NCBI GenBank assembly: GCA_902798745.1
Contig: CADBXM010000016.1
Coordinates: forward strand, 1 to 36,280
Direction of reading: 5' to 3'
Origin: an uncultured Eubacteriales bacterium
GTDB taxonomy: Bacteria > Bacillota > Clostridia > Peptostreptococcales > Anaerovoracaceae
DNA length: 36,280 nt
The notes beneath the pieces are model-generated. The model did no database searches. It was not told the DNA's origin and saw only the letters and a program-made list of their open reading frames with translations. The position numbers and the translations under genes were made by a program. Of the stretch, positions 16,019-29,941 are shown one piece after another; the stretch's first letter is position 1; each line of letters begins with the position of its first letter.

Positions 16019-18994
16019 ATGAAACGGGTATTTAAAAAGGGGGCTATGCAGATCCTGACGGCACTGCTGACTATGGCAGTTATTATTGGATTTGCACCGC
16101 GGATTGGGATGCCGGTCTATGCGGAAAGCAACGGCCTGTCTATGACGATGGGCGCCGGTGTGCTTGGACAGAATGTAAACACGCCCGATGCGCAGACCGT
16201 TTGGTATGCAGACAAGACATGGCGCGTGATTGGTTATGATTCCAAAGACACCTGGGCAAGTGAAGAAGATGTTGCTACATTACTGTCTGCGGTAAATCTT
16301 GAACAAACGCCGTTTAATGAGAACAACACCAGTAATGTTTACAGCACCAGTCTGCTCAAAGAGAAGGTCGATCAGATAACGGAGGATCTGACACCAGGAG
16401 AGAAAAAGGCGATAAGAACAAGGACCCTTGAGAGCGGTCCTTATGAAGGCCAGTTTACTAATTGCATTGCTGGGCCGGAGGTTCCTGACACTTGGATGTG
16501 GCCTCTTTCATCGAGGGAAGCAAATGATGTAAATAGAGAACTACGCAAGCCAGATCCTGAGCACCCATATTGGGAAAGCAGCTATTGGTGGCTTCGTTCA
16601 CCGGGAAGTATGAAGTCTGCTTTTTCACAAGTTGCTGAAAACGGGCTTCTTTATAGCAATATCATGCCTCTTCCAGGAAGTGCATGTGGAGTGCGTCCTG
16701 CTTTTTATCTGAATCTTGAATCTGTTCTTTTCACATCTGCTGCTGAAAACGGCAAGGTCACCGGTGAAGCAGGTGCTGACGCGCTTACCGAAGTAACAAA
16801 TGCAGCCGGAAGCGAATGGAAAGTAACAGTTCTGGATCCTGAAAGAAACTTTAAAATAACACAGTTGAATCAAGCGGGAAATGTTTTTACGGTAAACTAT
16901 TCAGGCGCCAAGATAGGAGCCAACGAATATATCTCCGCTGTTATACAAAACAGCAATGGTGACGTGACATATTATGGAAGGCTCAAGAATGTAACTTCAG
17001 ATGCTGACGCAAGCGGAGAGATCTCAATCAATACCGAAGGAAAGTTCAATGCCGGTGATACGATCTATGTTTTCAACGAACAGTGTAATGGAGACAAGAA
17101 AACGGATTATGCAAGCAAGCTTCAAGGGATCTATACCGTTACATTCTTAAATGGCTATGAAGAAGAACCAATTAAGTCGGAAATAGTTCTAGAGGGCAAG
17201 AATGCAACTGCTCCTGAAAATCCGACAAGAAAAGGATATTCATTCAAGGGCTGGGACAAGGATTTCAGCAATGTAACATCTAATTTGAACGTAACAGCAG
17301 AATGGGAGCTGGTGACTTATACAGTAACATTTGTAGACGACCTTGAGAACGTTTTTGATACACAGACTGTAGTTAGCGGCAATGCAGCTACTGCTCCGGA
17401 GGTTCCGGTAAGGTACGGATATACATTCAAGGGCTGGGACAAGGATTTCAGTAATGTTACAGGGGATTTGACAGTAACCGCAATATATGAGCCGATCAAG
17501 GTCACTTCCCTTAGATTCAGGAAAGTTCCTAGCGAAATCGATGAAGGCAAGGAAGCTGATATAACAGTTTCTATCGAGCCTGTAAAGGCGCTGGACAAAA
17601 GCTTAGAGTGGAGCAGCAGCGATACAGACGTCCTTACGGTCGACGAGAATGGCCATATCGAAGGACTCAAAGCAGGTAAGGCCACTGTGACGGTCAGAAC
17701 TAAAGACGGAAGCGATCTGAGCCGATCAAGAATTATTAAAGTCAATTGTGCTCACGATTGGGGTGGTTGGAGTCCGACCAAGCCGGCAACAGCAGAAGAA
17801 GCCGGCGAGGAGACTCGCGAATGCAGTAAATGCGGAGAAAAAGAAACAAGAGTTATCCCGATCGATCATGATCACGACCTGATCCTTGAAGAGACAGAGG
17901 CAACATGCACAAGCAGCGGGATGATGGCTCATTATAAATGCAGCAAATGCGAAGCACTGTTTAAGGATGCAGCCGGTACTGAAGTGACATCGGCCGGAGA
18001 GCTTAGGATCCCTCCAACAGGTCATATCGGTGGAGACCCAGTGAAAGAAGGCGATGAGACAGCTGCGACTTGTAGTTTGCCTGGAGGTTATAACCTGTAT
18101 ACCAGGTGTGAGAATTGTAATGCCGTACTTACGGTCGAGCGTTTTGAGATCCCAATTGATCCGGATGCGCATGTCTGGGGCGAGTGGAAGGTGATAACAC
18201 CGGCAACGACTTCAGCAGAAGGAGTAGAGACTCGCACTTGCAGTCTCTGCGATGAACAGGAGACCAGAGCAATTCCGAAGATCAAGCCTGAACCAACGCC
18301 TGCACCTGGAAGCGACCCTAATCAGAAGGGCGCAGACGGCACGGCAGTTGGGCCAGGAGCTTCAGCTGCTTGCGCAGACAAGGCCATCACTTCCATGAAG
18401 AGCGATAACGACCCTGCCGGTTCCAAGTTTGCTCCGCTCAAGCTCAAGAGCACCAAGCAGGGCAAGAACAGCGTAAAACTGGCCTGCACAAAAGCAAAGG
18501 GCGCTACCAGCTACGTCATTTACGGCAATGCCTGCGGCACTAAGAACAAGATGAAGAAGCTGACTACTGTAAAGACGAACAGCTACAACGTCAAGAAAAT
18601 CAGCAAGAAGCTCAAGAAGGGCACATATCACAAGTTCATCGTAGTTGCGCTGGATAAGAACAACAACGTAGTATCGACATCAAAACTGATCCACGTCGCG
18701 ACAACAGGCGGCAAGGTCGGCAACAACAAGAGCGTGACAGTCACGAAGAAGGTCGTGAACAAGGCGAAGAAGCTTAAGAAGGGCAAGACCCTGAAGCTGA
18801 AAGCCAAGGCTATCGCCAAGAGCAAGAAGCTCAAGGTGAAGAAGCACAAAGCAGTTCGCTACGAGTCGACCAATACCAAGATCGCAACCGTTTCAAATGC
18901 GGGCGTCGTGAAGGCCAAGAAGAAGGGCACATGCTACATCTATGCATACGCGCAGAACGGTGTGTCCAAGAAGATCAAGGTAACAGTAAAGTAG
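16019..18994 (+). CDS. Large modular secreted surface protein (DUF6273, InlB-type repeats, Big_2)
   Basis: A 991-aa exported protein without a visible LPXTG. After the signal peptide (about 1-35), a DUF6273-like domain (about 55-240) holds WRVIGYD, WWLRSPG and GVRPAFYLNL. Two Listeria-Bacteroides/InlB-B type repeats follow (about 371-430 and 432-493; both contain GYxFKGWDKDFSNVT), then a Big_2 Ig-like domain (about 494-575), two HxWGxW units with CSKCGEKETR and CSLCDEQETR Cys pairs flanking a third Cys-rich segment (about 577-765), a Pro-rich linker, and a Lys-rich Ig-like C-terminus (about 800-991) that may bind anionic wall polymers. GAGGAGG precedes the ATG. Probably an adhesin or wall-associated protein; partner unknown. 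Confidence 0.9.
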   Translation: MKRVFKKGAMQILTALLTMAVIIGFAPRIGMPVYAESNGLSMTMGAGVLGQNVNTPDAQTVWYADKTWRVIGYDSKDTWASEEDVATLLSAVNLEQTPFNENNTSNVYSTSLLKEKVDQITEDLTPGEKKAIRTRTLESGPYEGQFTNCIAGPEVPDTWMWPLSSREANDVNRELRKPDPEHPYWESSYWWLRSPGSMKSAFSQVAENGLLYSNIMPLPGSACGVRPAFYLNLESVLFTSAAENGKVTGEAGADALTEVTNAAGSEWKVTVLDPERNFKITQLNQAGNVFTVNYSGAKIGANEYISAVIQNSNGDVTYYGRLKNVTSDADASGEISINTEGKFNAGDTIYVFNEQCNGDKKTDYASKLQGIYTVTFLNGYEEEPIKSEIVLEGKNATAPENPTRKGYSFKGWDKDFSNVTSNLNVTAEWELVTYTVTFVDDLENVFDTQTVVSGNAATAPEVPVRYGYTFKGWDKDFSNVTGDLTVTAIYEPIKVTSLRFRKVPSEIDEGKEADITVSIEPVKALDKSLEWSSSDTDVLTVDENGHIEGLKAGKATVTVRTKDGSDLSRSRIIKVNCAHDWGGWSPTKPATAEEAGEETRECSKCGEKETRVIPIDHDHDLILEETEATCTSSGMMAHYKCSKCEALFKDAAGTEVTSAGELRIPPTGHIGGDPVKEGDETAATCSLPGGYNLYTRCENCNAVLTVERFEIPIDPDAHVWGEWKVITPATTSAEGVETRTCSLCDEQETRAIPKIKPEPTPAPGSDPNQKGADGTAVGPGASAACADKAITSMKSDNDPAGSKFAPLKLKSTKQGKNSVKLACTKAKGATSYVIYGNACGTKNKMKKLTTVKTNSYNVKKISKKLKKGTYHKFIVVALDKNNNVVSTSKLIHVATTGGKVGNNKSVTVTKKVVNKAKKLKKGKTLKLKAKAIAKSKKLKVKKHKAVRYESTNTKIATVSNAGVVKAKKKGTCYIYAYAQNGVSKKIKVTVK

Positions 18995-19017: not shown

Positions 19018-19050
19018 TATAAGGTTCATTTAAGGTAAATGCGCTTAAAT
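19018..19050 (+). promoter_or_regulatory. PmrA/OmpR-type box A upstream of the two-component genes
   Basis: TATAAG (19018-19023), GTTCA, TTTAAG (19029-19034): two six-base half-sites with 11-bp period. After 10 bp comes TTAAAT (19045-19050), a weak -10-like hexamer. It shares layout with boxes B (22357) and C (25122). It overlaps the start of a terminator hairpin. Confidence 0.4.
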
Positions 19051-19078
19051 TCAATTATTGGATCTAAGCGCATTTTTA
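19037..19078 (+). terminator. Terminator of the surface protein gene
   Basis: An 11-bp perfect stem (AAATGCGCTTA 19037-19047 with TAAGCGCATTT 19065-19075) followed by TT; about 45 bp after the stop. Confidence 0.8.
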
Positions 19079-19103
19079 CTTTTGCGCCCGGTAAGGGTAA
19101 AAT
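19075..19103 (+). promoter_or_regulatory. Promoter of the two-component operon
   Basis: TTTACT (19075-19080), a 17-bp spacer and TAAAAT (19098-19103), 40 bp before the response-regulator ATG. Confidence 0.5.
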
Positions 19104-19143
19104 GGTTTCAAATACAGTGATGGCATTGCCAAAAGGGGGGAAA

Positions 19144-19821
19144 ATGAGGATATTGCTCGCGGAAGACGAAAAAGCGCTGTCGAAAGCGCTCGTAAAGATC
19201 TTTGAGAACAGCAATTATTCGATAGACGCTGTCTTCGACGGACAGGAGGCTCTAGATTATCTAGAGGCAGGCAACTACGATGTTGCCGTGCTGGATATAA
19301 TGATGCCTAAAGTCGACGGCATCACTGTGCTGAAAAAGCTTCGCGCTTCGGGTTCAGACCTTCCTGTGTTGATGCTTACCGCGAAAGCTGAGATAGACGA
19401 CAAGGTGCTCGGTCTCGACAGCGGGGCCAACTACTATCTTACCAAGCCTTTCGATGCGAAGGAACTGCTGGCCGCCGTCAGGGCGATTACCCGCAGCGGC
19501 AATGAGGTGGACACCAAGCTCAGCTTCGGCAACATCACACTCGACAGAGCCGGTTTCGAGCTCTCGTCTCCTACCGGAAGCGTAAAGCTTGCGAATAAAG
19601 AGTTCCAGATGATGGAGCTTCTGATGGCGAAACCGGGCAATGTGATCTCAGTTGACACTTTCATGGATCACATCTGGGGATATGACACAGAGACCGAGAG
19701 CAACGTGGTGTGGGTATACATCTCGTATCTCAGGAAAAAACTCACGGCGCTCGGAGCGGACATCAAGATAAAGGCACTTAGGAATGCGGGCTACTCGCTC
19801 GTAAAGTCGGAGGAAAACTGA
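19144..19821 (+). CDS. OmpR/PhoB-family response regulator
   Basis: A 225-aa response regulator. The start at 19144 follows AGGGGGG and fits the family start RILLAEDE; an in-frame ATG 105 bp upstream lies inside the terminator and is rejected. The receiver has acidic pocket Glu7-Asp8, phospho-acceptor Asp51 (LDIMMP), Thr79 and Lys101 (LTKPFD). The C-terminal winged helix (about 125-220) includes KEFQMMELLMAKPGNVIS and VVWVYISYLRKKL, typical of OmpR-family regulators that bind direct repeats. The cognate kinase starts 33 bp downstream. Three direct-repeat boxes in this window are its likely sites (inference). Confidence 0.95.
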   Translation: MRILLAEDEKALSKALVKIFENSNYSIDAVFDGQEALDYLEAGNYDVAVLDIMMPKVDGITVLKKLRASGSDLPVLMLTAKAEIDDKVLGLDSGANYYLTKPFDAKELLAAVRAITRSGNEVDTKLSFGNITLDRAGFELSSPTGSVKLANKEFQMMELLMAKPGNVISVDTFMDHIWGYDTETESNVVWVYISYLRKKLTALGADIKIKALRNAGYSLVKSEEN

Positions 19822-19854
19822 TCCCTTAAAGCTGACACACAGGACAAAGACACA

Positions 19855-21297
19855 ATGATCAAGAAACTGAAAATCAGATTCATAGTGCTTGCCATGGCAT
19901 CGCTGGTGGTGCTGTTGTCACTGATAGTGGCGGGCATGAACATCGCAAACTACCGCAATGTGGTAAGCGATGCGGACAAAAGGATAGAGGTGCTCGAGGA
20001 GAACTCTTCCAGACTGCTTGATATGCGCAAAGATGCAGGCTCTGTTCCGCCGCCGGGTGTATTTGGAGAGCGTGAAGACGCCGACAACTTCGGTGAAGAA
20101 ATCGGAGATCTCGATGATCAATTCGACTCTGATTATGCGGAAGACGATATCGATGAGGGCGGACGCTATTTCGGCAGGAACGGTGATCGCGGGCCTTCGA
20201 TGTCTCGTGACGAGGCTGAAGAATCCAGGTTTTTCATGGTCACTCTGGGCAGCGATGACAGTGTCGAATGGACCAACGTAGATCGCATATCCTCCGTTGA
20301 CAGCGATGAAGCGGGAGAGATGGCGAAGCAGGCAGCTTCTTCCGGCGAAGATAAGGGCTTCATTGGCGACTTCAGATACTCGGTCGATGAAGGTGAAGAG
20401 GATGGAACCACTCGCGTTACTTTCCTCGACTGCGGCAGGACACTCGCCGATTTTCACGACTTCCTTAGAGCAAGCGTGCTGATGTCGCTCGCGGGATTGA
20501 TTGCTGTGTTCTTCGTGATCCTCTATTTCGCAGAGCGCATCGTGAAGCCGGTGGCTGAGAGCTACGACAAGCAGAAGCGCTTCATTACTGATGCCGGGCA
20601 TGAGATAAAGACTCCTCTCGCAATCATCAAAGCCAACATCGACCTTATGGACATGGAGCTCGATGGTGAGAACTTCGACAAGGGCGAGATAAAGGAAAGC
20701 CTCGGCGATATAAACGATCAGGTCGATAGGCTGACAGGTCTCACTAACGACCTCGTATACCTTTCACGCATGGAAGAAACGGAAGGTCAGCTCGTGATGA
20801 CCGAAGTGCCGGTATCTGACATAGTTGCAGAAACGGTCTCGACGTTCGAAACACTCGCGGCCGAAAAAGGACTGGCGATATGCCCGGATATCGAGCCGAT
20901 GATCTCCATACAGGGCAGCAGCAAAGAACTTGAGAAACTCGTATCCATATTGATGGAAAACGCGATAAAGTATTCGGAACCGCCGCGAGTCATAGACCTT
21001 AGGGAGGGCGAGGACGGCATGCCGGCCCCTCCTGAGATACGAGTGGACTTCCATAAGGAAGGTAGGAACGCTGTGCTCAAGGTGTCGAACAGGACCGAGA
21101 CCGAGCTCACCAACGAGTCACTTTCGCATGTGTTCGAGAGGTTCTACCGGGCAGACAGCTCCCGCAACTCACAGACAGGCGGGCACGGCATAGGACTCTC
21201 GATGGCAAGCGCTATCGTAAAAGCGCATGGCGGTGATATCTCCGCACGCACCACCGACGGTCACGACTTCATCGCAACTGCATTCCTGCCGCTATGA
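19855..21297 (+). CDS. Sensor histidine kinase with acidic extracytoplasmic loop
   Basis: A 480-aa membrane kinase. TM1 is at about 8-30 and TM2 at about 205-227. Between them lies an exported sensor region that is very acidic (residues 70-105 are mostly Asp/Glu/Gly) and contains an ExxE-type EAEE motif. The HisKA box carries His249 (DAGHEIKTPLAII); the ATPase domain has the N box MENAIKYSEPP and the G box GHGIGLSMASAIVKAHGG. An acidic loop with ExxE recalls PmrB, which senses Fe3+ and other cations, but the ligand here is not known. Ribosome binding is weak (AGGA). In an operon with the response regulator. Confidence 0.93.
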   Translation: MIKKLKIRFIVLAMASLVVLLSLIVAGMNIANYRNVVSDADKRIEVLEENSSRLLDMRKDAGSVPPPGVFGEREDADNFGEEIGDLDDQFDSDYAEDDIDEGGRYFGRNGDRGPSMSRDEAEESRFFMVTLGSDDSVEWTNVDRISSVDSDEAGEMAKQAASSGEDKGFIGDFRYSVDEGEEDGTTRVTFLDCGRTLADFHDFLRASVLMSLAGLIAVFFVILYFAERIVKPVAESYDKQKRFITDAGHEIKTPLAIIKANIDLMDMELDGENFDKGEIKESLGDINDQVDRLTGLTNDLVYLSRMEETEGQLVMTEVPVSDIVAETVSTFETLAAEKGLAICPDIEPMISIQGSSKELEKLVSILMENAIKYSEPPRVIDLREGEDGMPAPPEIRVDFHKEGRNAVLKVSNRTETELTNESLSHVFERFYRADSSRNSQTGGHGIGLSMASAIVKAHGGDISARTTDGHDFIATAFLPL

Positions 21298-21331
21298 GGT
21301 AATGAAATGAAACGGTTATGTGTTAGTAGCG

Positions 21332-21359
21332 TTGACTAAATTAAGGTACATGGTATAAT
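21332..21359 (+). promoter_or_regulatory. Promoter of the MntA/HepT pair
   Basis: TTGACT (21332-21337), a 16-bp spacer, and TATAAT (21354-21359) with a TG extended -10. The predicted start is near 21366. Confidence 0.65.
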
Positions 21360-21394
21360 TAACCTACAAGATGGATGATGTGAAGGTTAATTAT

Positions 21395-21979
21395 ATGAAC
21401 GACTTAGAAAAAGCAGTAATAAATGAATACCAGGCTTTAATGAAGAAAGAGAAGCTCCTAAGAGAAGATCTAAGTGAGCTTCCTTTTGGTTATTTGCAAA
21501 AGAAAACAATCAGTGGTAAAGAGTATTACTATCTTCAGCACCGTGAAGGGAAAAAAGTGAAGTCAGTATATGTTAAAAAAGAAGATTTGGAAGAGACAAG
21601 AGAAAAAGTTGAGAAGCGTAAAGAAATAGAAAAAGGGATAAAAGAAATAAAAAAACGCAAACAGGCGTTGGAAGGAATAATAGATAAGGATTTGCTGCAG
21701 GTGCTCGTAATAAAACAGGCCGTCCTTAAGGTAATAGCGGATTACGAGGGGATAAAGAAAGTGGTGCTTTTTGGCTCAAGAGCTGAGGGCCGATATAGAG
21801 ATGACAGTGATGTTGATTTGATGTTCGAATCAAGAGAATCGATGTCTCTGATGACTCAGGCTGAGATAAGGTTGAGACTTGAAGATGAACTCGGCCTAAA
21901 CGTTGACCTTGTCCATGGGCCGATAAAAGAGGATGCCTTCCTTGAGATCGACAGAGAGGTAGAGATTTATGCAGCATAG
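21395..21979 (+). CDS. mntA: MntA-type nucleotidyltransferase antitoxin with N-terminal extension
   Basis: Antitoxin of a HEPN/MNT toxin-antitoxin module; MntA enzymes inactivate HepT by adding AMP to a Tyr near its active site. The 194-aa start at 21395 is chosen because AAGG (21383-21386) precedes it; an ATG at 21371 lies about five bases from the predicted transcript start. The minimal nucleotidyltransferase motif G-S-x10-D-x-D is exact: Gly127, Ser128, Asp139, Asp141 (FGSRAEGRYRDDSDVD). Residues 1-95 are an extra domain resembling DUF6788 (GYLQKKTISGKEYYYLQHR, then a charged helix), absent from minimal MntA proteins. The gene is A/T-rich relative to neighbours, suggesting transfer. Confidence 0.88.
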   Translation: MNDLEKAVINEYQALMKKEKLLREDLSELPFGYLQKKTISGKEYYYLQHREGKKVKSVYVKKEDLEETREKVEKRKEIEKGIKEIKKRKQALEGIIDKDLLQVLVIKQAVLKVIADYEGIKKVVLFGSRAEGRYRDDSDVDLMFESRESMSLMTQAEIRLRLEDELGLNVDLVHGPIKEDAFLEIDREVEIYAA

Positions 21980-22298
21980 AGATGAAATAGTTATACAAAA
22001 GATCATTAAAGAAATAGATTTTGCGACTAACAGACTTAAGGGCATCTCCAATGACGACTTTATTGTTGATGATGATGCGCAACATGCAGTTGGAATGGCT
22101 GTTATAAACGTCGGAGAGTTGATAAAGCATATATCCGACAATCTACGGAAAGATAATCCGGGAATTCCCTGGAAAGAAGCTGCCGGGCTCAGAGACGTTG
22201 CTGCGCATTCTTACGACACAATACGAATGGATGACTTGTTTAGTACAGTGACCGATGATTTTCCAGTGCTGAGAGAGATGTTGGAAAAGCTTTTGTAA
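21969..22298 (+). CDS. hepT: HepT-type HEPN RNase toxin
   Basis: A 109-aa HEPN-domain toxin. The family motif R-x4-H-x-Y is exact: Arg75, His80, Tyr82 (RDVAAHSY); Arg and His form the RNase site and the Tyr is the usual AMPylation target. The length and all-helical pattern fit HepT (DUF86). It overlaps the antitoxin gene by 11 bp, indicating translational coupling. Antitoxin first, toxin second is the normal order. A terminator follows. Confidence 0.92.
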   Translation: MQHRDEIVIQKIIKEIDFATNRLKGISNDDFIVDDDAQHAVGMAVINVGELIKHISDNLRKDNPGIPWKEAAGLRDVAAHSYDTIRMDDLFSTVTDDFPVLREMLEKLL

Positions 22299-22327
22299 TT
22301 AGACTGGAAAACGTTACTTGGCGCATA

Positions 22328-22362
22328 TGCAAAAGACTTTCCGATCGGGAGGTCTTTTTTAG
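22328..22362 (+). terminator. Terminator of the toxin-antitoxin operon
   Basis: AAAGAC pairs with GTCTTT with an inner CC-GATC-GG, followed by TTTTTT. The T-tract overlaps the first half-site of box B. Confidence 0.65.
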
Positions 22363-22389
22363 TTTCATTTAAGTTACGCGGGCTATTAT
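22357..22389 (+). promoter_or_regulatory. PmrA/OmpR-type box B and -10 of the VTC gene
   Basis: TTTTAG (22357-22362), TTTCA, TTTAAG (22368-22373), then 10 bp and TATTAT (22384-22389). The -35 at normal spacing is poor (AGTTTC), which fits an activator-dependent promoter. The element ends 50 bp before the GTG start. Confidence 0.55.
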
Positions 22390-22423
22390 GTGAACTGTAA
22401 AGAGAAAGAAAGGAGAGCTCGCG

Positions 22424-23326
22424 GTGAAGTATCAGGCGGTTTTCAAAAGATATGAAATCAAATACGCTGTTACGGCGGCGCAGAAGGAGAAGATCATCGA
22501 GGCGATGAAGCCATATATGGTCATGGACAAATATGGAAAGTCGACTGTCAGGAATCTCTACTTCGACACGGATGACTTTGTGCTAGCCAGGCATTCCATC
22601 GCGAAGCCTGACTACAAAGAAAAGCTGCGCATAAGAAGCTACTCGAAGGCTGATTCCGAGAGCACGGTGTTTGTCGAACTGAAGCGCAAGTATGACGGCG
22701 TTGTATACAAGAGAAGGATAAGCCTGCCCGAGAAAGACGCGATGCGTTGGACTTCGGAATCAAAGGACAATGCGATCATGAACGAGCTCAGCAAGGAATC
22801 CCCGCAGGTCGCCGATGAGATCGGCTATTTCCTGGGTATGTACTCATGGCTTAAGCCTGTCATCTACCTTTCGTATGACCGCGAGGCTTACAGGATGAGA
22901 AACGGTATGAGCGCGACCGAAGGAGGCTCGGATTTCAGAGTGACTTTCGATTCGAACATTCGCTGCAGAGAGACCGATCTATCGCTTGCTTCTGACCCTT
23001 ACGGCAGATCCATCCTGGAGGACGGCATGTACCTGATGGAACTGAAGTGCTCGGGCAGCATCCCGCTCTGGCTTGCGAGGCTTCTCTCGGAAGAGCATAT
23101 ATACAAGACTTCGTTTTCGAAATACGGCACGGCGTATTGCCACTTCATGGACGAAACGCCGGCAGACAGATCGCATATGATAGCGGTCGAAGGAATCAGA
23201 GCAATAAGAACCAAGGGAGAAACAAGATCGATACATTCAGATTTCGGAAGATCGGAAAGAAACCGCGCGGCGGAAGGCGGCAGTCGTCGAAGGCTCGCGT
23301 TCCTTGGCCACAGAGCAACAGCTTGA
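22424..23326 (+). CDS. VTC-domain polyphosphate polymerase-like protein
   Basis: A 300-aa protein with the VTC/CYTH-like tunnel fold that makes polyphosphate in yeast Vtc4; bacterial members are annotated as polyphosphate polymerase-domain proteins. Visible conserved positions: FKRYEIKY near the start, NLYFDTDDF, EKLRIRSY, FVELKRKYDGVVYKRR, SYDREAY, RVTFDSNIR, LMELKC and the Lys of KTSFSKYG. The charged residues lining the tunnel are kept. Residues after about 255 are an unconserved Arg/Ser-rich tail. It starts with GTG after AGGAG (22411-22415). No membrane or SPX domain is present. The actual polymer has not been shown for such proteins. Confidence 0.85.
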   Translation: MKYQAVFKRYEIKYAVTAAQKEKIIEAMKPYMVMDKYGKSTVRNLYFDTDDFVLARHSIAKPDYKEKLRIRSYSKADSESTVFVELKRKYDGVVYKRRISLPEKDAMRWTSESKDNAIMNELSKESPQVADEIGYFLGMYSWLKPVIYLSYDREAYRMRNGMSATEGGSDFRVTFDSNIRCRETDLSLASDPYGRSILEDGMYLMELKCSGSIPLWLARLLSEEHIYKTSFSKYGTAYCHFMDETPADRSHMIAVEGIRAIRTKGETRSIHSDFGRSERNRAAEGGSRRRLAFLGHRATA

Positions 23327-23407
23327 TCGCATTAAGTTCTTAAGCAGGGTGCACTTTATTGAACAAAATAGCTTCTTCATAACAATTCCCTTAATATATA
23401 GAGAGAG

Positions 23408-23434
23408 GTCCGCGGAAACGCGGGCTTTTTTCTT
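23408..23434 (+). terminator. Terminator after the VTC gene
   Basis: GTCCGCG (23408-23414) pairs with CGCGGGC (23419-23425) around a GAAA tetraloop, followed by TTTTTTCTTT. Confidence 0.85.
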
Positions 23435-23495
23435 TGTGCTCGCAAACTGCTGTCGATACCAACCATTTGCGGGCGTTTTGCTCGTGTAAAAGTGG

Positions 23496-23523
23496 TTTCA
23501 GCCGAGTAAAAACGTGTTATACT
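23496..23523 (+). promoter_or_regulatory. azlC promoter, positioned for a leaderless mRNA
   Basis: TTTCAG (23496-23501) with 16-bp spacing to TATACT (23518-23523), preceded by an extended -10 TG. Six bases (TTTTGC) separate the -10 from the azlC ATG. No Shine-Dalgarno is present. Confidence 0.55.
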
Positions 23524-23529
23524 TTTTGC

Positions 23530-24327
23530 ATGGCTGAACTCAAGGAAAGCAGAAGCAAATTATATATCGAAGGCGTCAAGGCGGGTTTCCCGATCGGACT
23601 CGGGTATTTTGCTGTTGCTTTTTCTCTTGGTATCGCTGCCAGAGACTACGGCTTCACGGCGTTCCAGGGATTCATCTCGAGCCTGTTCACCTACGCTTCG
23701 GCAGGGCAGTACATAGGATTCTCGCTTTACGCGGCGAACGGTACGCTGCTTACGCTGATACTCCTGACCGCGATCACCAACCTCAGATACATATTGATGG
23801 GGTTTGCGCTCAACCAGAGGATGCCGGCCGGCACGAGCCTCGGCACTCGCATGCTGGTTGGCACATGCATCACGGATGAGATCTTCAGCGTTACGATTGC
23901 GAGGTCGGGTATACCGACTCCGTGGTATACCTTCGGAGCCCTCCTTACGGCGGCTCCGATGTGGGCGGCCGGCACTGCTGTCGGCATCAGTATGGGAAGC
24001 ATACTTCCGGATCGCATAGTCAGCGCGCTTTCGGTGGCGCTCTTTGGCATGTTCATCGCCAGCATCATACCGCCCGCAAAGAAGGATCGCGCCGTGGCAC
24101 TTGCGATAGCGGTCAGCTTTGCCTGTTCACTTGCATGCGAATACATTCCTTTTGTAAAGGATCTGTCTCAGGGCACCAGGCTCACCATTCTCGCGATAGG
24201 GATCTCCGCGTTGTTCGCGCTGCTGTTCCCGAGGGCCGATGAAGAGGACAAGATGCTCGAAGAGGCCGAAGGAGTAACATCGGGTGAGTCCAACGAAACA
24301 GACGGGGAGGTGCGTAATGAAGGTTAA
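23530..24327 (+). CDS. azlC: AzlC-family branched-chain amino acid exporter subunit
   Basis: Large subunit of the AzlCD (BrnFE-type) exporter for branched-chain amino acids and analogues. 265 aa from the chosen start; in-frame codons upstream overlap the promoter. Conserved N-terminus with FPIGLGYFAVAFSLGI, then AGQYIGFSLY, TAITNLRYILMGFAL and TDEIFSVT, all AzlC marks; about 7-8 hydrophobic segments, and an acidic tail after about residue 235. The last 11 bases overlap azlD. The operon continues to a methionine sulfoxide reductase. Substrate is inferred from the family. Confidence 0.9.
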   Translation: MAELKESRSKLYIEGVKAGFPIGLGYFAVAFSLGIAARDYGFTAFQGFISSLFTYASAGQYIGFSLYAANGTLLTLILLTAITNLRYILMGFALNQRMPAGTSLGTRMLVGTCITDEIFSVTIARSGIPTPWYTFGALLTAAPMWAAGTAVGISMGSILPDRIVSALSVALFGMFIASIIPPAKKDRAVALAIAVSFACSLACEYIPFVKDLSQGTRLTILAIGISALFALLFPRADEEDKMLEEAEGVTSGESNETDGEVRNEG

Positions 24328-24622
24328 CATCTACCTGTACATATTCGTGATGGCCTTCGCCACATGGTGCATGCGCGTGATCCCGTCACTCATCATGAAG
24401 AAGCCTATCGAGAACTGCTTCGCCAAATCCTTCTTATACTATGTGCCTTACGTCACTCTGGCCATCATGACTTTCCCTGCGATAGTGCAGGCGACCGATC
24501 AGCCACTCGCGGGTGCGGCGGCTCTGGTTGCCGGGATCGTTGCGGCGTGGTTTGGCGCCAACCTCTTCAGCGTGGCCAGCATCTGCTGCGTCACAGTGCT
24601 CATACTGGAATTTCTGCTGTAA
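24317..24622 (+). CDS. azlD: AzlD-family branched-chain amino acid exporter subunit
   Basis: Small membrane partner of AzlC, 101 aa with about four hydrophobic segments. TWCMRVIPSLIMKK at the start and YYVPYVTLAIMTFPAI are typical AzlD sequence. GGGGAGGTG (24304-24312) lies within the end of azlC and directs this start, so the two subunits are translationally coupled. Confidence 0.88.
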   Translation: MKVNIYLYIFVMAFATWCMRVIPSLIMKKPIENCFAKSFLYYVPYVTLAIMTFPAIVQATDQPLAGAAALVAGIVAAWFGANLFSVASICCVTVLILEFLL

Positions 24623-24639
24623 AGAAATAGGATATTCAG

Positions 24640-25086
24640 ATGACAGATTATAAACTGCTTTGCGAGCAGATAACTGAACTTTCAAAAGAATCCGCTGACC
24701 CTGTCCCGCTCATGGCGAACGCATCGGCCTTGCTGTATCACGCCATGCCCGATGTGAACTGGGTCGGCTTTTATAATGTAAAAAACGGCGAGCTCCTGCT
24801 CGGACCGTTCCAGGGGAATACAGCATGCGTCCGTATTCAGAAGGGTCGAGGTGTATGCGGAACCGCATGGAAGACAGACAGCACTCAGCTTGTGCCTGAT
24901 GTTCATGCGTTCCCGGGACATATCGCTTGCGACGCTGCCTCCAGGTCTGAAATAGTGGTCCCGATACATCGTGACGGAGAGGTCGCAGCGGTACTCGACA
25001 TCGACAGCCCTGTCCCGGATCGATTCGCAGAAGAAGATAAGGAAGGGCTCGAAGCATTTGCCGCCACCCTCGAGCAGATCATGTGA
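24640..25086 (+). CDS. msrC: Free methionine-(R)-sulfoxide reductase (GAF domain)
   Basis: Reduces free L-methionine-(R)-sulfoxide. The 148-aa single GAF domain matches the fRMsr family throughout: NWVGFY, LGPFQGNTACVRI, GRGVCGTAW, DVHAFPGHIACD, SEIVVPI and LDIDSP. The three redox cysteines are Cys63, Cys73 and Cys97. AGGA (24629-24632) is 7 bp before the ATG. It lies 17 bp after azlD and is probably cotranscribed. The pairing is unexplained but makes sense as amino acid stress handling. Confidence 0.93.
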   Translation: MTDYKLLCEQITELSKESADPVPLMANASALLYHAMPDVNWVGFYNVKNGELLLGPFQGNTACVRIQKGRGVCGTAWKTDSTQLVPDVHAFPGHIACDAASRSEIVVPIHRDGEVAAVLDIDSPVPDRFAEEDKEGLEAFAATLEQIM

Positions 25087-25104
25087 CCACAATAAACGAT
25101 TAAA

Positions 25105-25156
25105 AAAAGAAACTCCGCTCCTTTTAGTTTCACTTAAGGGAGTGGAGTTATTTTAT
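25105..25156 (+). terminator. Terminator after msrC, with box C in its loop
   Basis: AACTCCGCTCC (25111-25121) pairs with GGAGTGGAGTT (25139-25149, one G-U pair), followed by ATTTTATT. The 17-nt loop is the regulatory box C. Confidence 0.65.
25122..25154 (+). promoter_or_regulatory. PmrA/OmpR-type box C and -10 of the DUF4956 operon
   Basis: TTTTAG (25122-25127), TTTCA, CTTAAG (25133-25138), then 10 bp and TATTTT (25149-25154). It matches box B at 16 of 17 positions. The predicted leader to the ATG at 25245 is about 85 nt and contains two small hairpins (25158-25180 and 25199-25213). Confidence 0.55.
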
Positions 25157-25244: not shown

Positions 25245-25940
25245 ATGAAAATGGAAGAATTGATCAGCAGCATTTACGCAAGTCAGGCGGCATCGATAAG
25301 CTTCACGGATTTCGCGGCAGCGTTCGCGGCATCCATAGCGCTCGGTCTTATGATCGCGGCCGCATATATGCATAATACACGCTACACCAAGAGCTTCGTG
25401 GTAACACTCGCGATGCTTCCGGCGATCATATGCGTCATCATCATGATGGTGAACGGCAGTGTCGGCACGGGAGTCGCAGTGGCAGGAGCGTTCAGCCTCG
25501 TGAGGTTCCGCTCGGTACCGGGCACAGCAAAAGAGATCTGCGCTCTCTTCCTCGCAATGGGAACAGGCCTCATTACCGGCATGGGATACCTCGGGCTCGC
25601 GACAGTTTTCGCGGCGGTGCTCTCGCTTGCGATTGTGGTCTTCAATCATGTCGACCTAGGCGCGAAGAAAAACGCGGACAGATACAAGAGCATAAGAGTC
25701 ATGATCCCGGAAGACCTTGATTACACCGGTGTGTTTGACGAAGTGCTTAGAGAGTACACCAGCTCGTGCGAGCTCGTGAATGTCAAGACGACCAACATGG
25801 GCAGCATGTTCAGGCTCACCTACGATGTGGTGCTCAAGGACCCTGCGAGGGAGAAAGAGATGATCGACAGGCTGCGCATGAGAAACGGCAATCTCGAGGT
25901 CAATGTGTCGAGACAGGCGACGGCGGCAACCGAGCTTTAA
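25245..25940 (+). CDS. DUF4956 membrane protein
   Basis: A 231-aa protein: four hydrophobic segments in residues about 20-135 (including SIALGLMIAAAYM, LPAIICVIIMMVNGS and AIVVFNHV), with the family-typical GAFSLVRFRSVPGTAKEI between them, and a cytosolic alpha/beta tail of about 90 aa. AAGGAG precedes the ATG. In many Bacillota DUF4956 genes sit beside VTC-domain genes, and often CotH-type kinases, so a joint role in making or exporting a surface or phosphate polymer is suspected. It has no known biochemical activity. Here it is separated from the VTC gene by the azl-msrC operon but shares the same upstream box. Confidence 0.88.
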   Translation: MKMEELISSIYASQAASISFTDFAAAFAASIALGLMIAAAYMHNTRYTKSFVVTLAMLPAIICVIIMMVNGSVGTGVAVAGAFSLVRFRSVPGTAKEICALFLAMGTGLITGMGYLGLATVFAAVLSLAIVVFNHVDLGAKKNADRYKSIRVMIPEDLDYTGVFDEVLREYTSSCELVNVKTTNMGSMFRLTYDVVLKDPAREKEMIDRLRMRNGNLEVNVSRQATAATEL

Positions 25941-26043: not shown

Positions 26044-27753
26044 ATGAATAAATACGATAACAGAGTATGTAATAACGGCGAAACGAAAATCGGGGCGGAG
26101 ACCGGAACAGAGAAGGGCGTTGCGGCAAAGGCTTTCGCAGCGATGCTGGCGCTGTTACTGGCGCTGGTCCTTACACTAAGCTCATGCGGAAGTTCGGCCG
26201 CAGGGTCCGGCACAGACGATGAAGCGATCGGTACGGTTTCGGCAGAGACGACAAGCACTGCGTCAAGTAATGCGGCAAGCAAGTCGGAGATGTTCACGGA
26301 ACGTGACCTCGCGGATGACTACAACGAGTCGGAGGCTGAGACGATCACACTGAGCGGTACATCGGCGGAGACTTCGGCAAAGTCCGGCGTGAGCATTGAC
26401 GGAAGCACTATAACCATTTCGGCAGAAGGAGTGTATGTCGTGAGCGGCACACTGAGCGATGGCAAGATCGCAGTCGATGCTGACGAGAACGCCAAGGTCC
26501 AGATAGTGCTGAAGGACGCGGATATCACAAGCAAGACTTCGGCGGCTATATATGTCAAGTCGGCGGATAAGGTGTTCATCACGACAGCAAGCGAAACAGA
26601 GAATTCTCTCGCAAATGGCGGCAGCTTCACGGCTGATGGAGATACAAATATCGATGGGGCTGTCTTCGCAAAGGACGACATCACATTCAATGGTAGCGGC
26701 AGCCTGGCCATCGAATCGCCTGCGGGGCATGGCGTTGTCGGCAAGGATGATGTCAAGTTCGGCGGCGGCACATACACGATCACCGCGGCAAAGCACGGAG
26801 TACAGGCCAACGATTCGATAAGGATGGCGGAGTCGGACGTCACCATCACGGCAGGAGCTGATAAGGATGGAGTCCACGTATCTGACGATGACGCGGAAAC
26901 CTCTGAGAGCTTCTTCTATATGGCTGACGGAACGCTCAGCATCGACTCTCAGGATGACGGTATACATGCGGATGCAGAGGTCATCATCGAAGGCGGCGAG
27001 ATCAACATCACGGAGTCTTACGAAGGTATCGAGGGACTTTCGATAAAGATCAGCGGCGGAAGCACGTCTCTGGTCGCGACGGACGACGGACTCAATGCGG
27101 CAGGTGGCAATAATTCCACGAGTGACAGTACTTTCTCGGAAGACGACTGGATGGGCGGCCACGGAGGCGGATTCAATGATGGCGGTACCAATGGCAGCAT
27201 CGAGATCAGTGGTGGCAAGCTCCATGTAATAGCGGGCGGTGACGGCCTCGACTCCAACGGATCGCTTGAGATCAGCGGCGGCTATACAGAGGTGGTCGGA
27301 CCATCGAGCGGGGACACTTCAGTGATCGACTTCAATGGTTCGGGCGTTATCACAGGCGGCACATTCATCGGAACAGGCGGAGCCGGGATGGCCGAGAGTT
27401 TCACAAGCGCGGAGCAGGGCCTCATCGCGGTGAGCGTAGGAAACCAGTCGGGCGCAGTGAGCCTGAAGGATGCTGAGGGAAATGTCATCGCAGAGGCAGA
27501 GCCGGAACTTGACTATGCTGTTGTATATATCAGCACAGAGGATATGGCAAAAGGCGAGACATATACACTGACTGCCGGAAGCTACAGCGGAGAGATCACG
27601 CTTGAGGACTATATGTACAGTGAACTTGCCGGCGGAATGGGTGGCGGCATGGGCGGCCACGGAGGAGGAATGAAAGGCGGCATGAGCGGCCATGGAAATG
27701 AAATGCAGGGCGGCATGAGTGATGTCATGCAGAGCGAAGGTATTGCGTCGTAA
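26044..27753 (+). CDS. Cthe_2159-type carbohydrate-binding lipoprotein
   Basis: A 569-aa predicted surface lipoprotein with a lipobox at LSSC (Cys about 48) after an unusually long, polar N-terminus (about 30 aa), so the true start could be internal. The body is a repetitive parallel beta-helix (VVSGTLSDGKIAVDA, KDADITSKTSAAIYVKSADK, AAKHGVQANDSI, DKDGVHVSDDD, DDGIHADAEVIIEGGEINI) as in the Cthe_2159 family, whose founder binds cellulose-like and acidic polysaccharides with calcium. The last 45 residues are Gly/Met/His-rich (GGMGGGMGGHGGGMKGGM) and may bind metal. It belongs to the DUF4956 operon, with the next gene 33 bp downstream. Confidence 0.85.
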   Translation: MNKYDNRVCNNGETKIGAETGTEKGVAAKAFAAMLALLLALVLTLSSCGSSAAGSGTDDEAIGTVSAETTSTASSNAASKSEMFTERDLADDYNESEAETITLSGTSAETSAKSGVSIDGSTITISAEGVYVVSGTLSDGKIAVDADENAKVQIVLKDADITSKTSAAIYVKSADKVFITTASETENSLANGGSFTADGDTNIDGAVFAKDDITFNGSGSLAIESPAGHGVVGKDDVKFGGGTYTITAAKHGVQANDSIRMAESDVTITAGADKDGVHVSDDDAETSESFFYMADGTLSIDSQDDGIHADAEVIIEGGEINITESYEGIEGLSIKISGGSTSLVATDDGLNAAGGNNSTSDSTFSEDDWMGGHGGGFNDGGTNGSIEISGGKLHVIAGGDGLDSNGSLEISGGYTEVVGPSSGDTSVIDFNGSGVITGGTFIGTGGAGMAESFTSAEQGLIAVSVGNQSGAVSLKDAEGNVIAEAEPELDYAVVYISTEDMAKGETYTLTAGSYSGEITLEDYMYSELAGGMGGGMGGHGGGMKGGMSGHGNEMQGGMSDVMQSEGIAS

Positions 27754-27786: not shown

Positions 27787-28944
27787 TTGAGTAACAGATA
27801 TATAGCATTGATACCGGCGTATGAGCCGGATGAGCGGATGCTCGCCTTGATCGACGAGCTGAGCGATAGAGGCTTCGATATAGTCGTCGTGGATGACGGC
27901 AGCGGAAGCGAATACGAAGGCATATTTGAAAAAGCCGAGGAGAAGGCGATAGTGCTGACCCATGCCGCGAACCGCGGCAAGGGCGCCGCCCTCAAGACCG
28001 GCATGAAATACATAGAAAAATACATGGCCTACTACGAAACGGCAAAGAAGGCGGGCGGCGCTGTCAGCGTCTCCGGCAAGGATGCCGTGGTAGTCACCGT
28101 CGACGCTGACGGTCAGCACAGACCCGACGACGTCGAAAGAGTTGCAAGGATATCCGAGCAGCACAAAAACGCGCTGGTCCTCGGAAGCAGGGCTCTCGCA
28201 GACGGCACTCCGCTAAGGAGCATGATGGGGAATACCATCACAAGGCACGTCTACAAAATGGCCACCGGAGTGCCGGTCCACGACACGCAGACCGGTCTCA
28301 GGGCTTTCCGTCTCAGCATGATCCCATTGCTTCTCGAGGTGGAAGGTGAGCGCTATGAGTATGAGATGAACATGCTGCTCAGCCTTGCAAGCGGTGGGAC
28401 CCCGATCATAGAAGAGGAGATCGAGACCGTTTACGAGGACAACAACAGCGGTTCGCATTTCAAGACAATAAGAGATTCGGCAAGAGTGTATAAGGAGATC
28501 CTTAAATTCTCTGCCTCATCCCTTGCGAGCTTCGTTATCGACTATACCGCGTACGCGCTGCTGCTTGCCATTACGGGAGCTGCAGGCATCGCAAACGGGT
28601 TGATCGTATCCAACATAGCAGCCAGGATAATAAGCGGAGCCGCCAACTACACGATGAACAAAAAACTGGTGTTCAGGAGCAGAACAGGCTTTGCGAAGTC
28701 CGCGCTGCAGTACACGATACTCGCGGGCTTCATCCTTGCGGGCAACACCATAGTCCTCAGCATACTCACCGGAACTTTCGGCTTGAACAGTTACCTCGCG
28801 AAGCTGCTCACAGAGCTCATATTCTTTGCGATAAGCTGGACGGTGCAGCGCTATGTCATCTTTTTCAGCGACCGGGAGCCTGAAGCATCAGCTGAAGAAG
28901 TGCCGGCTTCGAAGGAAGCGCCGGCTGCGGAAGAGGCGCGCTGA
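27787..28944 (+). CDS. GT2 glycosyltransferase fused to a GtrA membrane domain
   Basis: A 385-aa bifunctional protein. Residues 1-235 are a family-2 glycosyltransferase of the polyprenyl-phosphate sugar synthase type: IPAYEPD, VVVDDGSGS (Asp-Asp pair), NRGKGAALKTGM, the metal site DADGQH, GSR and QTGLRAF. Residues about 240-365 form a GtrA-like four-helix membrane domain (SLASFVIDYTAYALLL, NYTMNKKLVFRS) thought to flip the lipid-linked sugar. The C-terminus is a Glu/Ala-rich tail. The start is TTG after AAGGATGG. Probably supplies a lipid-linked sugar for surface decoration; the sugar is unknown. Confidence 0.9.
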   Translation: MSNRYIALIPAYEPDERMLALIDELSDRGFDIVVVDDGSGSEYEGIFEKAEEKAIVLTHAANRGKGAALKTGMKYIEKYMAYYETAKKAGGAVSVSGKDAVVVTVDADGQHRPDDVERVARISEQHKNALVLGSRALADGTPLRSMMGNTITRHVYKMATGVPVHDTQTGLRAFRLSMIPLLLEVEGERYEYEMNMLLSLASGGTPIIEEEIETVYEDNNSGSHFKTIRDSARVYKEILKFSASSLASFVIDYTAYALLLAITGAAGIANGLIVSNIAARIISGAANYTMNKKLVFRSRTGFAKSALQYTILAGFILAGNTIVLSILTGTFGLNSYLAKLLTELIFFAISWTVQRYVIFFSDREPEASAEEVPASKEAPAAEEAR

Positions 28945-28972
28945 TCAGTCGGAGAATATGGAGAGTAAAGCA

Positions 28973-29941
28973 ATGAGGACAATGAAGAAACATATTATCG
29001 TGATCGCGTATGTGCTTATACTTGCTGTGTTCACTGCTTATGTCGCGCTCGACACCTTCGTGATCACCAGAGTTTATGGGGACAGCAACTCGGCAAATCC
29101 GATAACAGCGGAAACCGAGCAAGGCGGCGCGGCGACAGGGTCGGCCGGCTCGACAACAGGAGCAGACAGCTCAGCAGATAGCGACGCTGCGGAATCGGCA
29201 GTCGTGACAGGCGACAGCTACTCGGATGAAAATATATCCGTGGAACTTAGCGAGTACACATCGAACAACACACAGATCCACGTAGCTGAGGTGACGCTGA
29301 GTTCGCCTGAATACCTGCAGACCTACCTCGCGCACGGAGTCTACGGCAAGAATGTGACGGAGGCGACATCTGAGATGGCTGACGATGTGGACGCGATACT
29401 GGCTATCAATGGCGATTACTACGGGGCCCGCGAGTCGGGCTACGTTATACGCGGCGGAGAGGTCTACAGAAACAGCGCCGATCAAGGTCAGGAAGATCTC
29501 GTGATCTATGAAGACGGGTCGTTTGGGATCATCAACGAGAGTGATGTCACCGCTGAAGAATTGGTCGAAGACGGAGTGGTGCAGAGCCTGTCGTTCGGGC
29601 CTGCGTTGGTCGAAAACAGCGAGGTCGCTGTAGCTGAGGGCGAAGAGGTCGGCCGCGCCATGGCCAGCAACCCGAGGACAGCGATAGGCATAAAAGATGA
29701 CGGCACTTACTTGTTCGTAGTGTCTGATGGCAGGACGGATGAGAGCGAAGGCCTGAGCCTTGCAGAGCTCGCGGAGTTCATGCAGAGTCTCGGCGCAGAA
29801 ACAGCATACAACCTAGACGGCGGTGGGTCGTCCACGATGGTGTTCAACGGTGAAGTCGTGAACACACCGACCGGTGGAAAAGCCGGTCATGGGGCGGGAA
29901 ATGAAAGGAGCGTGAGTGACATTGTATACATCGGATACTAA
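28973..29941 (+). CDS. Phosphodiester glycosidase family (NAGPA) exported protein
   Basis: Family PF09992 proteins cleave sugar-1-phosphodiester bonds, as human NAGPA does. 322 aa from the start chosen at 28973, because GGAG (28960-28963) stands 9 bp before it; ATGs at 28958 and 28982 are alternatives. An N-terminal signal anchor (about 8-28) is followed by a Ser/Thr/Ala linker. Catalytic-domain marks: AINGDYYGARESGYVIRGGE, SNPRTAIGIK and YNLDGGGSSTMVFNG. In this operon it could trim or release a phosphodiester-linked glycan. The last 26 bases overlap the next gene. Confidence 0.88.
   Translation: MRTMKKHIIVIAYVLILAVFTAYVALDTFVITRVYGDSNSANPITAETEQGGAATGSAGSTTGADSSADSDAAESAVVTGDSYSDENISVELSEYTSNNTQIHVAEVTLSSPEYLQTYLAHGVYGKNVTEATSEMADDVDAILAINGDYYGARESGYVIRGGEVYRNSADQGQEDLVIYEDGSFGIINESDVTAEELVEDGVVQSLSFGPALVENSEVAVAEGEEVGRAMASNPRTAIGIKDDGTYLFVVSDGRTDESEGLSLAELAEFMQSLGAETAYNLDGGGSSTMVFNGEVVNTPTGGKAGHGAGNERSVSDIVYIGY

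Follow-up and report, generated by a model that had tools for sequence, protein, structure and literature searches.

The response regulator PmrA (BasR) recognises the direct repeat YTTAAK-N5-YTTAAK. CiaR of the streptococci binds NTTAAG-N5-TTTAAG, located 10 bp from the -10 hexamer (PMC3091779), and drives several small RNAs per genome, the csRNAs, which carry sequence complementary to the Shine-Dalgarno sequence (anti-SD) and to AUG in unpaired regions (PMC3091779, PMC8186281, PMC4507080). HtrA is, by the title of PMC10197876, a target of the CiaRH system in streptococci, outside which CiaRH has been reported to be absent (PMC3091779). In Clostridioides difficile the OmpR-family regulator RR_1586 (CD1688) has the consensus DRTTAAGNWWWDRTTAAGNWWW and, when tested in E. 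coli, acted as a repressor on reporters that carried similar repeats (PMC6222199); on deletion of its gene its own operon rose and several predicted targets fell (PMC9380558). In streptococci and clostridia, Pel loci come with accessory genes for CotH, a polyphosphate polymerase, DUF4956 and DUF4832 (PMC7112168). Here we describe a box of this kind in a 36,280-nucleotide stretch of DNA from an uncultured Eubacteriales bacterium (the window), which is one entire contig (CADBXM010000016.1; G000:C16) of a 1.97-Mb genome in 41 contigs. It is very likely that the box is the tandem site of the response regulator (RR) encoded at 19144-19821, which would activate a gene for a VTC-domain protein and a DUF4956-Cthe_2159 operon as part of a CiaRH-like system. 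The sequence comparisons establish the box, its conservation, its covariation with the class of the regulator, its position at the starts of small RNAs and the structure of those RNAs; binding, phosphorylation, activation rather than repression and the mechanism of the RNAs we infer, the first three from the protein family and from CiaR.

The initial annotation had described three boxes of one layout, each followed after 10 bp by a -10-like hexamer, and reading the sequence confirms all three, with N10 at each; these and the other features given here between 19018 and 29941 of the window lie on its forward (+) strand. Box A (TATAAG-GTTCA-TTTAAG, 19018-19034; hexamer TTAAAT, 19045-19050) is upstream of the two-component system, box B (TTTTAG-TTTCA-TTTAAG, 22357-22373; TATTAT, 22384-22389) upstream of VTC and box C (TTTTAG-TTTCA-CTTAAG, 25122-25138; TATTTT, 25149-25154) upstream of DUF4956. 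With up to two mismatches to TTTTAGTTTCAYTTAAG, B and C are the sole matches in the whole genome, the reversed pattern giving one. When the window was searched with a position matrix, a type of search that had been suggested, its three highest scores, with both strands considered, belonged to B (35.1), C (29.6) and A (9.6), and the fourth was 2.3. This matrix (consensus TTTAAGTTTCGTTTAAG) draws on 46 sites in the genomes of other genus members, VTC and DUF4956 sites included and the window excluded, and scores the 17-bp box and the -10 hexamer with the spacer ignored; in 4 Mb of Markov sequence a score of at least 8 was reached at two positions, of at least 10 at one and of at least 12 at none. 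Boxes B and C are far above chance. The promoter scan found no sigma-70-type promoter at either of them.

The box is kept in related species upstream of the orthologous VTC and DUF4956 genes. With regions of less than 100 bases excluded, sites counted as distinct by their best 33-mer and the 10-bp spacing fixed by the pattern used, 24 of the 26 distinct best sites upstream of VTC have at most three mismatches to the box and -10 hexamer, and 22 of the 24 upstream of DUF4956 at most two. At VTC 23 of the 26 sites lie 56-74 bp ahead of the start, and the position of the hexamer of box B is kept. Both loci that miss the DUF4956 box, L007 and L030, have this gene directly behind VTC. The sister genome G041 retains box C with two mismatches and, in a stretch of 24 or more unchanged bases surrounding the -10, the same TATTTT. 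This conservation supports the proposal that the VTC and DUF4956 genes belong to one regulon with the two-component system. At RR a looser pattern was used than for B and C; with it, 23 of 29 distinct upstream regions contain a mismatch-free repeat against 0.32 expected, and site A and its counterpart in the sister genome (CTTTAG-GTTGA-TTTAAA at the aligned place) each have one mismatch, neither being significant alone.

Random occurrence of the box was checked across the 47 genomes of the genus: YTTWAGTTTSRYTTAAG-N10-TANNNT has 46 matches in 22 genomes, the reversed pattern none. The pattern was shaped after the VTC and DUF4956 sites had been seen, and only the 18 matches at other units, as opposed to the 28 at these two genes, are independent of its design. 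They comprise 11 small-RNA loci, three lipoprotein genes (G010, G013, G034), three genes for DUF4405 membrane proteins (G012 and G032 by Pfam, G027 by identity of sequence with G012) and one PDZ-protein gene. Beyond the three units that had been predicted, the regulon takes in further ones, small RNAs of the relatives among them. In G032 (contig C20, L207), a genome with a kinase and without a DUF4956 match, the box, a PDZ-only protein, RR and kinase follow one another in that order. In the window's own genome a two-mismatch box (G000:C30:6138-6170, minus strand; L084) starts 102 bp from the start codon of a lipoprotein gene, whose product is 71% identical to the boxed lipoprotein of G034 and is also conserved, behind a box, in G010 and G013. 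DUF4956 was matched in 32 of the 47 genomes, strongly in 29, and the kinase in 31; the box is present in 20 of the 31 genomes with the kinase and in two of the 16 without (p = 0.0008).

Which regulator reads the box can be judged from DUF4956 loci of other families (L126-L196), 66 of which have a usable VTC start; 25 of these carry a box at p <=0.01. The regulators encoded beside VTC have two main classes of recognition helix, VVWVY[IV]SYLRKKL (VVWVY) and NVEVYMSFTRKKL (NVEVY), plus variants, the helix of the window's RR being NVVWVYISYLRKKL by helix alignment. When helix class and box are compared, with the 23 of the 66 loci whose regulator is unclassed omitted, TTCAAT-N5-TTCAAT-N10-TACAAT (up to four mismatches) is found at the VTC promoter of 18 of 19 NVEVY loci and none of 24 VVWVY loci (p = 3e-11). 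The TTTAAG box at the same tolerance is found at 13 of the 24 VVWVY loci and two of the 19 NVEVY loci (p = 0.004), and for the 24 VVWVY loci it is the better fit of the two boxes in 20, with two ties. Both classes act on one operon with a common geometry and differ in their boxes, so the box follows the regulator, which bears out the choice of the nearby OmpR-family regulator as the candidate. Across 393 genomes of the class a broader pattern has 60 matches against 11 for the control (tallied from the table). At the 29 loci of this pattern that were inspected outside the own genome the next gene is HtrA (trypsin and PDZ domains) in three, Cthe_2159 in three, VTC or VTC-like in two and a response regulator in one; the remainder are varied, and six of the 29 lack any 60-codon open frame within 250 bp. 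Two genomes of the same taxonomic order (L322, L323) have TTAAGCTTTWGTTAAGC-type boxes with a -10 hexamer upstream of GroES-like genes, which are named from the start of the protein alone.

In the boxed small RNAs of the relatives a 5' hairpin, UUGUC..GACAA, is followed by an unpaired linker that contains CUUCAUA and an anti-SD sequence, and then by a terminator. Read as its complement, the linker CTTCATAAAAACCTTCC gives a ribosome site, then a spacer of five bases and ATGAAG. Five copies folded with z of -3.9 to -5.7, the 5' hairpin being present in the minimum-energy fold of four (L080 folds otherwise). A first covariance model (R1), made from six RNAs, promoter-free and beginning after the -10, has matches in 29 of the 47 genomes, up to eight per genome. 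All new R1 matches with E up to 0.0097 were taken as 40 further candidates, among which are near-identical copies (L250, L253, L255, L258 and L263; L256 and L257); 31 of them have a box at p <=0.01 within the 90 bp that precede the match, and 27 of these have a -10 whose end coincides exactly with the start of the model. In the alignment of 38 rows (A4) 93.2% of cells pair, 97 cells show a change of both partners, compared with 24 after shuffling, and the terminator helix covaries, the alignment being fitted to the model structure that is counted and, like the second model (R2), including four antisense or partial rows. Among the 36 distinct rows with a length of 80 nucleotides or more, 33 contain CTTCATA (0.54 expected) and 32 have an anti-SD sequence no more than 12 bases behind it (0.04 expected); antisense rows account for two of the four misses. 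No Rfam family matches the small RNAs at the nine loci scanned. Elsewhere in the family G218 and G136 carry a boxed RNA, with a third match in G165 at a contig end; outside the family there are matches in two of the 393 class genomes (L293, L294), of which L294 has no box upstream. A small protein on the opposite strand was considered and dropped by eye, its frames differing between copies and the RNA structure covarying. Another small-RNA-like family that is conserved, AAACCTCCATATAA..TTTCCATATAATACC followed by a terminator, also has anti-start-site motifs and has no TTTAAG box upstream; it occurs in the own genome (G000:C15:11595-11700, minus strand; L282) and at L233, L237, L288 and L273.

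The same kind of motif lies in the 3' untranslated region of the window's VTC gene, where CTTCTTCATAA (23372-23382) is complementary to a TTATGAAGAAG-type start region and is followed by a terminator hairpin (23400-23433; fold z -3.32). In 17 genomes CTTCATA occurs between VTC and the next gene in 20 copies against 0.43 expected, its reverse complement never; 10 of the 17 have it in the VTC 3' region, the window included (23375-23381), the region being clipped to 200 bp for the window and to 260 bp for L033. The R1 model reaches the VTC 3' end in G034, G043 and G013. R2 gives six weak matches in the own genome (E 0.3 to 7.5), none of them boxed; the VTC 3' end (23352-23436, E 1.2) ranks second among them. 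Possibly a small RNA is cut from the VTC mRNA.

The likeness to CiaRH thus extends to an OmpR-family regulator, a direct repeat with N5, 10 bp to the -10 and small RNAs against the start site. The CiaR-type repeat NTTAAG-N5-TTTAAG is found at the target promoters, the first half-site in the window being TTTTAG at B and C and the second CTTAAG at C. The 10-bp spacing is seen at B, C, the VTC and DUF4956 sites of the relatives and the small RNAs, and at only four of 23 RR promoters; the csRNA-like unpaired anti-SD and anti-AUG feature is found in the relatives alone. HtrA, a streptococcal target, stands behind a similar box in three of the 29 class loci, and a PDZ-only protein is boxed in G032. 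Unlike CiaRH, the system is found in Clostridia, its main conserved targets are VTC, DUF4956 and Cthe_2159, its small RNAs are not matched in Rfam and the anti-start motif is also present in the VTC 3' untranslated region. Among the matches listed from the open-licence PMC literature there is no CiaR-type system outside streptococci. It is about evenly probable that the regulator evolved independently and converged on the CiaR box, with no common descent with CiaRH: the coinciding box and spacing, the anti-start-site RNAs and HtrA preceded by a similar box in genomes of the class argue against it, and the reported absence of CiaRH outside streptococci (PMC3091779) argues for it. By a hand count on the published 13-residue helix only, CiaR (VVEVYVSKVRKKL) has 9 of 13 residues in common with the VVWVY class and likewise 9 of 13 with NVEVY, which uses another box; because both classes share this number, the comparison does not decide on kinship with CiaR and is itself in keeping with convergence.

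RR_1586 is similarly a clostridial OmpR-family regulator with an 11-bp period (PMC6222199, PMC9380558), and differs in its predicted sporulation and transporter targets and in its operon, which encodes a hypothetical protein, a DNA-binding protein, a lipoprotein, the response regulator and the kinase. The Pel accessory loci also have polyphosphate-polymerase-like and DUF4956 genes side by side, whereas here Cthe_2159, GT2 and NAGPA follow; the term two-component does not occur in the text of PMC7112168. The initial annotation had taken the boxes for OmpR/PmrA-type activator sites. The family assignment holds, and the nearest published matches are CiaR and RR_1586, not PmrA. PmrA/BasR has a similar direct repeat, and the solved BasR chains 8jo2 and 4s04 are related to the window's RR, for which 1kgs (response regulator D) and 3r0j (PhoP) are closer. 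The NCBIfam PmrA model scores 157.8 bits against a cut-off of 330, and membership was rejected; none of the 25 NCBIfam models listed for RR attains its own cut-off.

A first alternative explanation of the likeness of B and C is A/T-rich terminator sequence, with no regulatory box. The caution raised at the outset, that all three boxes overlap a terminator, is correct: a hairpin after the Big_2 protein gene (19034-19080; fold z -4.15) overlaps the spacer and hexamer of A, the T-tract of a terminator at 22331-22358 overlaps the first half-site of B, and a 14-bp hairpin with a T-rich tail (25111-25149; RNA fold z -5.30) encloses C, so that a first half-site can coincide with a T-tract. The overlap is nevertheless not the cause of the box, because the box is kept in relatives with other flanks (at 56-74 bp from VTC in 23 of 26) and at the starts of small RNAs. 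The reversed pattern, equal in composition, has none of the 46 matches, and G041 keeps box C even though the 5' arm of its hairpin has changed. Conservation without the terminator was thus found, and we consider an origin in terminator sequence extremely improbable. The box might also be real and bound by a different response regulator, the neighbouring system being a bystander. Other OmpR-family regulators could bind similar repeats, TTAAG-type repeats with an 11-bp period being bound by more than one of them, RR_1586 for example (PMC6222199), and the broader pattern occurs in many genomes of the class (60 against 11). Against this, the sequence of the box tracks the class of the regulator beside VTC and its presence tracks the kinase, it heads the PDZ-RR-kinase group in G032, and a looser box precedes RR in 23 of 29 relatives; a bystander role seems quite unlikely. 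Repression at B and C instead of activation is unlikely too, if slightly less so. It would be in line with the repressed reporters of RR_1586 (PMC6222199) and the rise of its operon on deletion (PMC9380558), whereas the repeat here occupies the -35 position 10 bp from the -10, at promoters without a sigma-70-type match, the layout is that of CiaR-activated promoters (PMC3091779), and several predicted RR_1586 targets fell on deletion (PMC9380558).

Activation by the neighbouring regulator remains the preferred reading, and several observations weigh against it. Site A alone is not beyond chance (p = 0.19 within its own intergenic region) and is the weak link of the regulon; its hexamer lies inside the terminator hairpin and is doubtful as a promoter element. 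A degenerate pattern with up to three mismatches has five matches in the own genome (B, C, A and two more) against seven in the control. Of the 23 RR sites of the relatives, 12 have their best -10 at N14-16, four at N10 and three at N11, and the 10-bp spacing is rarely kept. Upstream of VTC the box is missing in L037 and L050 (two of 26) and oddly placed, at 225 bp, in L040. In the wider class only 13 of the 24 VVWVY loci carry the TTTAAG box at up to four mismatches, and at L134, L143, L175, L176, L183, L192 and L196 the VTC box is weak or absent despite a VVWVY regulator. It is weak (7.0, p = 0.01) also at L188 of the cultured Lachnoclostridium phytofermentans, whose regulator beside VTC is of this class. 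Nine of the 40 small-RNA candidates are boxless, one of them being the VTC 3' end; R1 finds no such RNA in the own genome up to E 10; and four genomes have boxed small RNAs without a kinase match where 12 with the kinase have no boxed small RNA (p = 0.03), the assemblies being incomplete.

If the neighbouring regulator does activate at B and C, the kinase would phosphorylate RR, a dimer of which would occupy the two half-sites of the direct repeat, with their 11-bp period, and take the place of the -35 element, 10 bp from the -10. RR would then contact and recruit RNA polymerase at B and C, as in class II activation. It probably acts at its own operon through A as well, and probably controls the lipoprotein gene on C30. 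In the relatives the same regulator would drive RNAs of about 120 nucleotides, made up of a 5' hairpin, an unpaired linker directed against the start site and a terminator, which should block translation of target mRNAs, so that a CiaRH/csRNA-like mode of working would extend to a cluster of polyphosphate-polymerase and surface genes. We give roughly equal weight to acceptance and rejection of the wider proposal, in which a CiaRH-type system with csRNA-like RNAs in Clostridia controls the VTC/DUF4956/Cthe_2159 cluster and the 3' end of the VTC mRNA is itself csRNA-like, one transcript providing both an enzyme and a translational silencer.

The domains of the encoded proteins were assigned with Pfam. 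RR has both the receiver and the winged-helix output domain of the OmpR/PhoB family (Response_reg, Trans_reg_C) and is followed by the sensor histidine kinase (19855-21297; HisKA, HATPase_c). The VTC-domain protein (22424-23326; E 2.2e-42) is polyphosphate polymerase-like. The DUF4956 membrane protein (25245-25940), conserved in relatives, is directly followed by a Cthe_2159-type carbohydrate-binding surface protein (26044-27753), as in 20 of the 20 stretches fetched from relatives, to which the comparison of gene order refers. A GT2/GtrA glycosyltransferase and a NAGPA phosphodiester glycosidase (27787-29941) make up the remainder of the cluster and are present after Cthe_2159 in 18 of the 20 stretches, the exceptions being L036 and L044. 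The order VTC, DUF4956, Cthe_2159 is found in 19 of 20, with RR and kinase ahead wherever the stretch includes them; in the exception, L037, VTC, kinase and RR are in opposite orientation, and in L040 the VTC match is split in two pieces. An unrelated operon had been said to separate the VTC and DUF4956 genes, and the kept order agrees with this. AzlC, AzlD and GAF genes (23530-25086) lie between them, probably inserted, and a nucleotidyltransferase and HepT-like pair (21371-22298), probably also inserted, lies between the kinase and VTC. Neither the pair nor the GAF gene is matched by tblastn in the 20 stretches, and both look like insertions for this reason; AzlCD occurs at the same place in the sister locus L033 and is unmatched in the remaining 19. 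The pair resembles an MNT-HEPN toxin-antitoxin module and is preceded by a good promoter match, TTGACT-16-TATAAT. Upstream of the regulator, between it and uvrA, the window encodes a 991-amino-acid protein with Big_2 and Listeria-Bacteroides repeats (16019-18994). The end of uvrA is about 110-190 bp ahead of RR in 10 of the 11 relatives in which the stretch contains both.

For the VTC-DUF4956-Cthe_2159 genes, which have no assigned role in Clostridia among the matches listed, these results would provide a regulator, a binding site and a regulon that can be tested. The combination of regulator and small RNAs, reported as confined to streptococci, would now be extended. Two helix classes acting on one operon, each with its own half-sites in the same geometry, offer a natural experiment on how OmpR-family regulators read DNA. 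The small RNAs directed against the start site point to a post-transcriptional layer of control in ruminant and gut bacteria.

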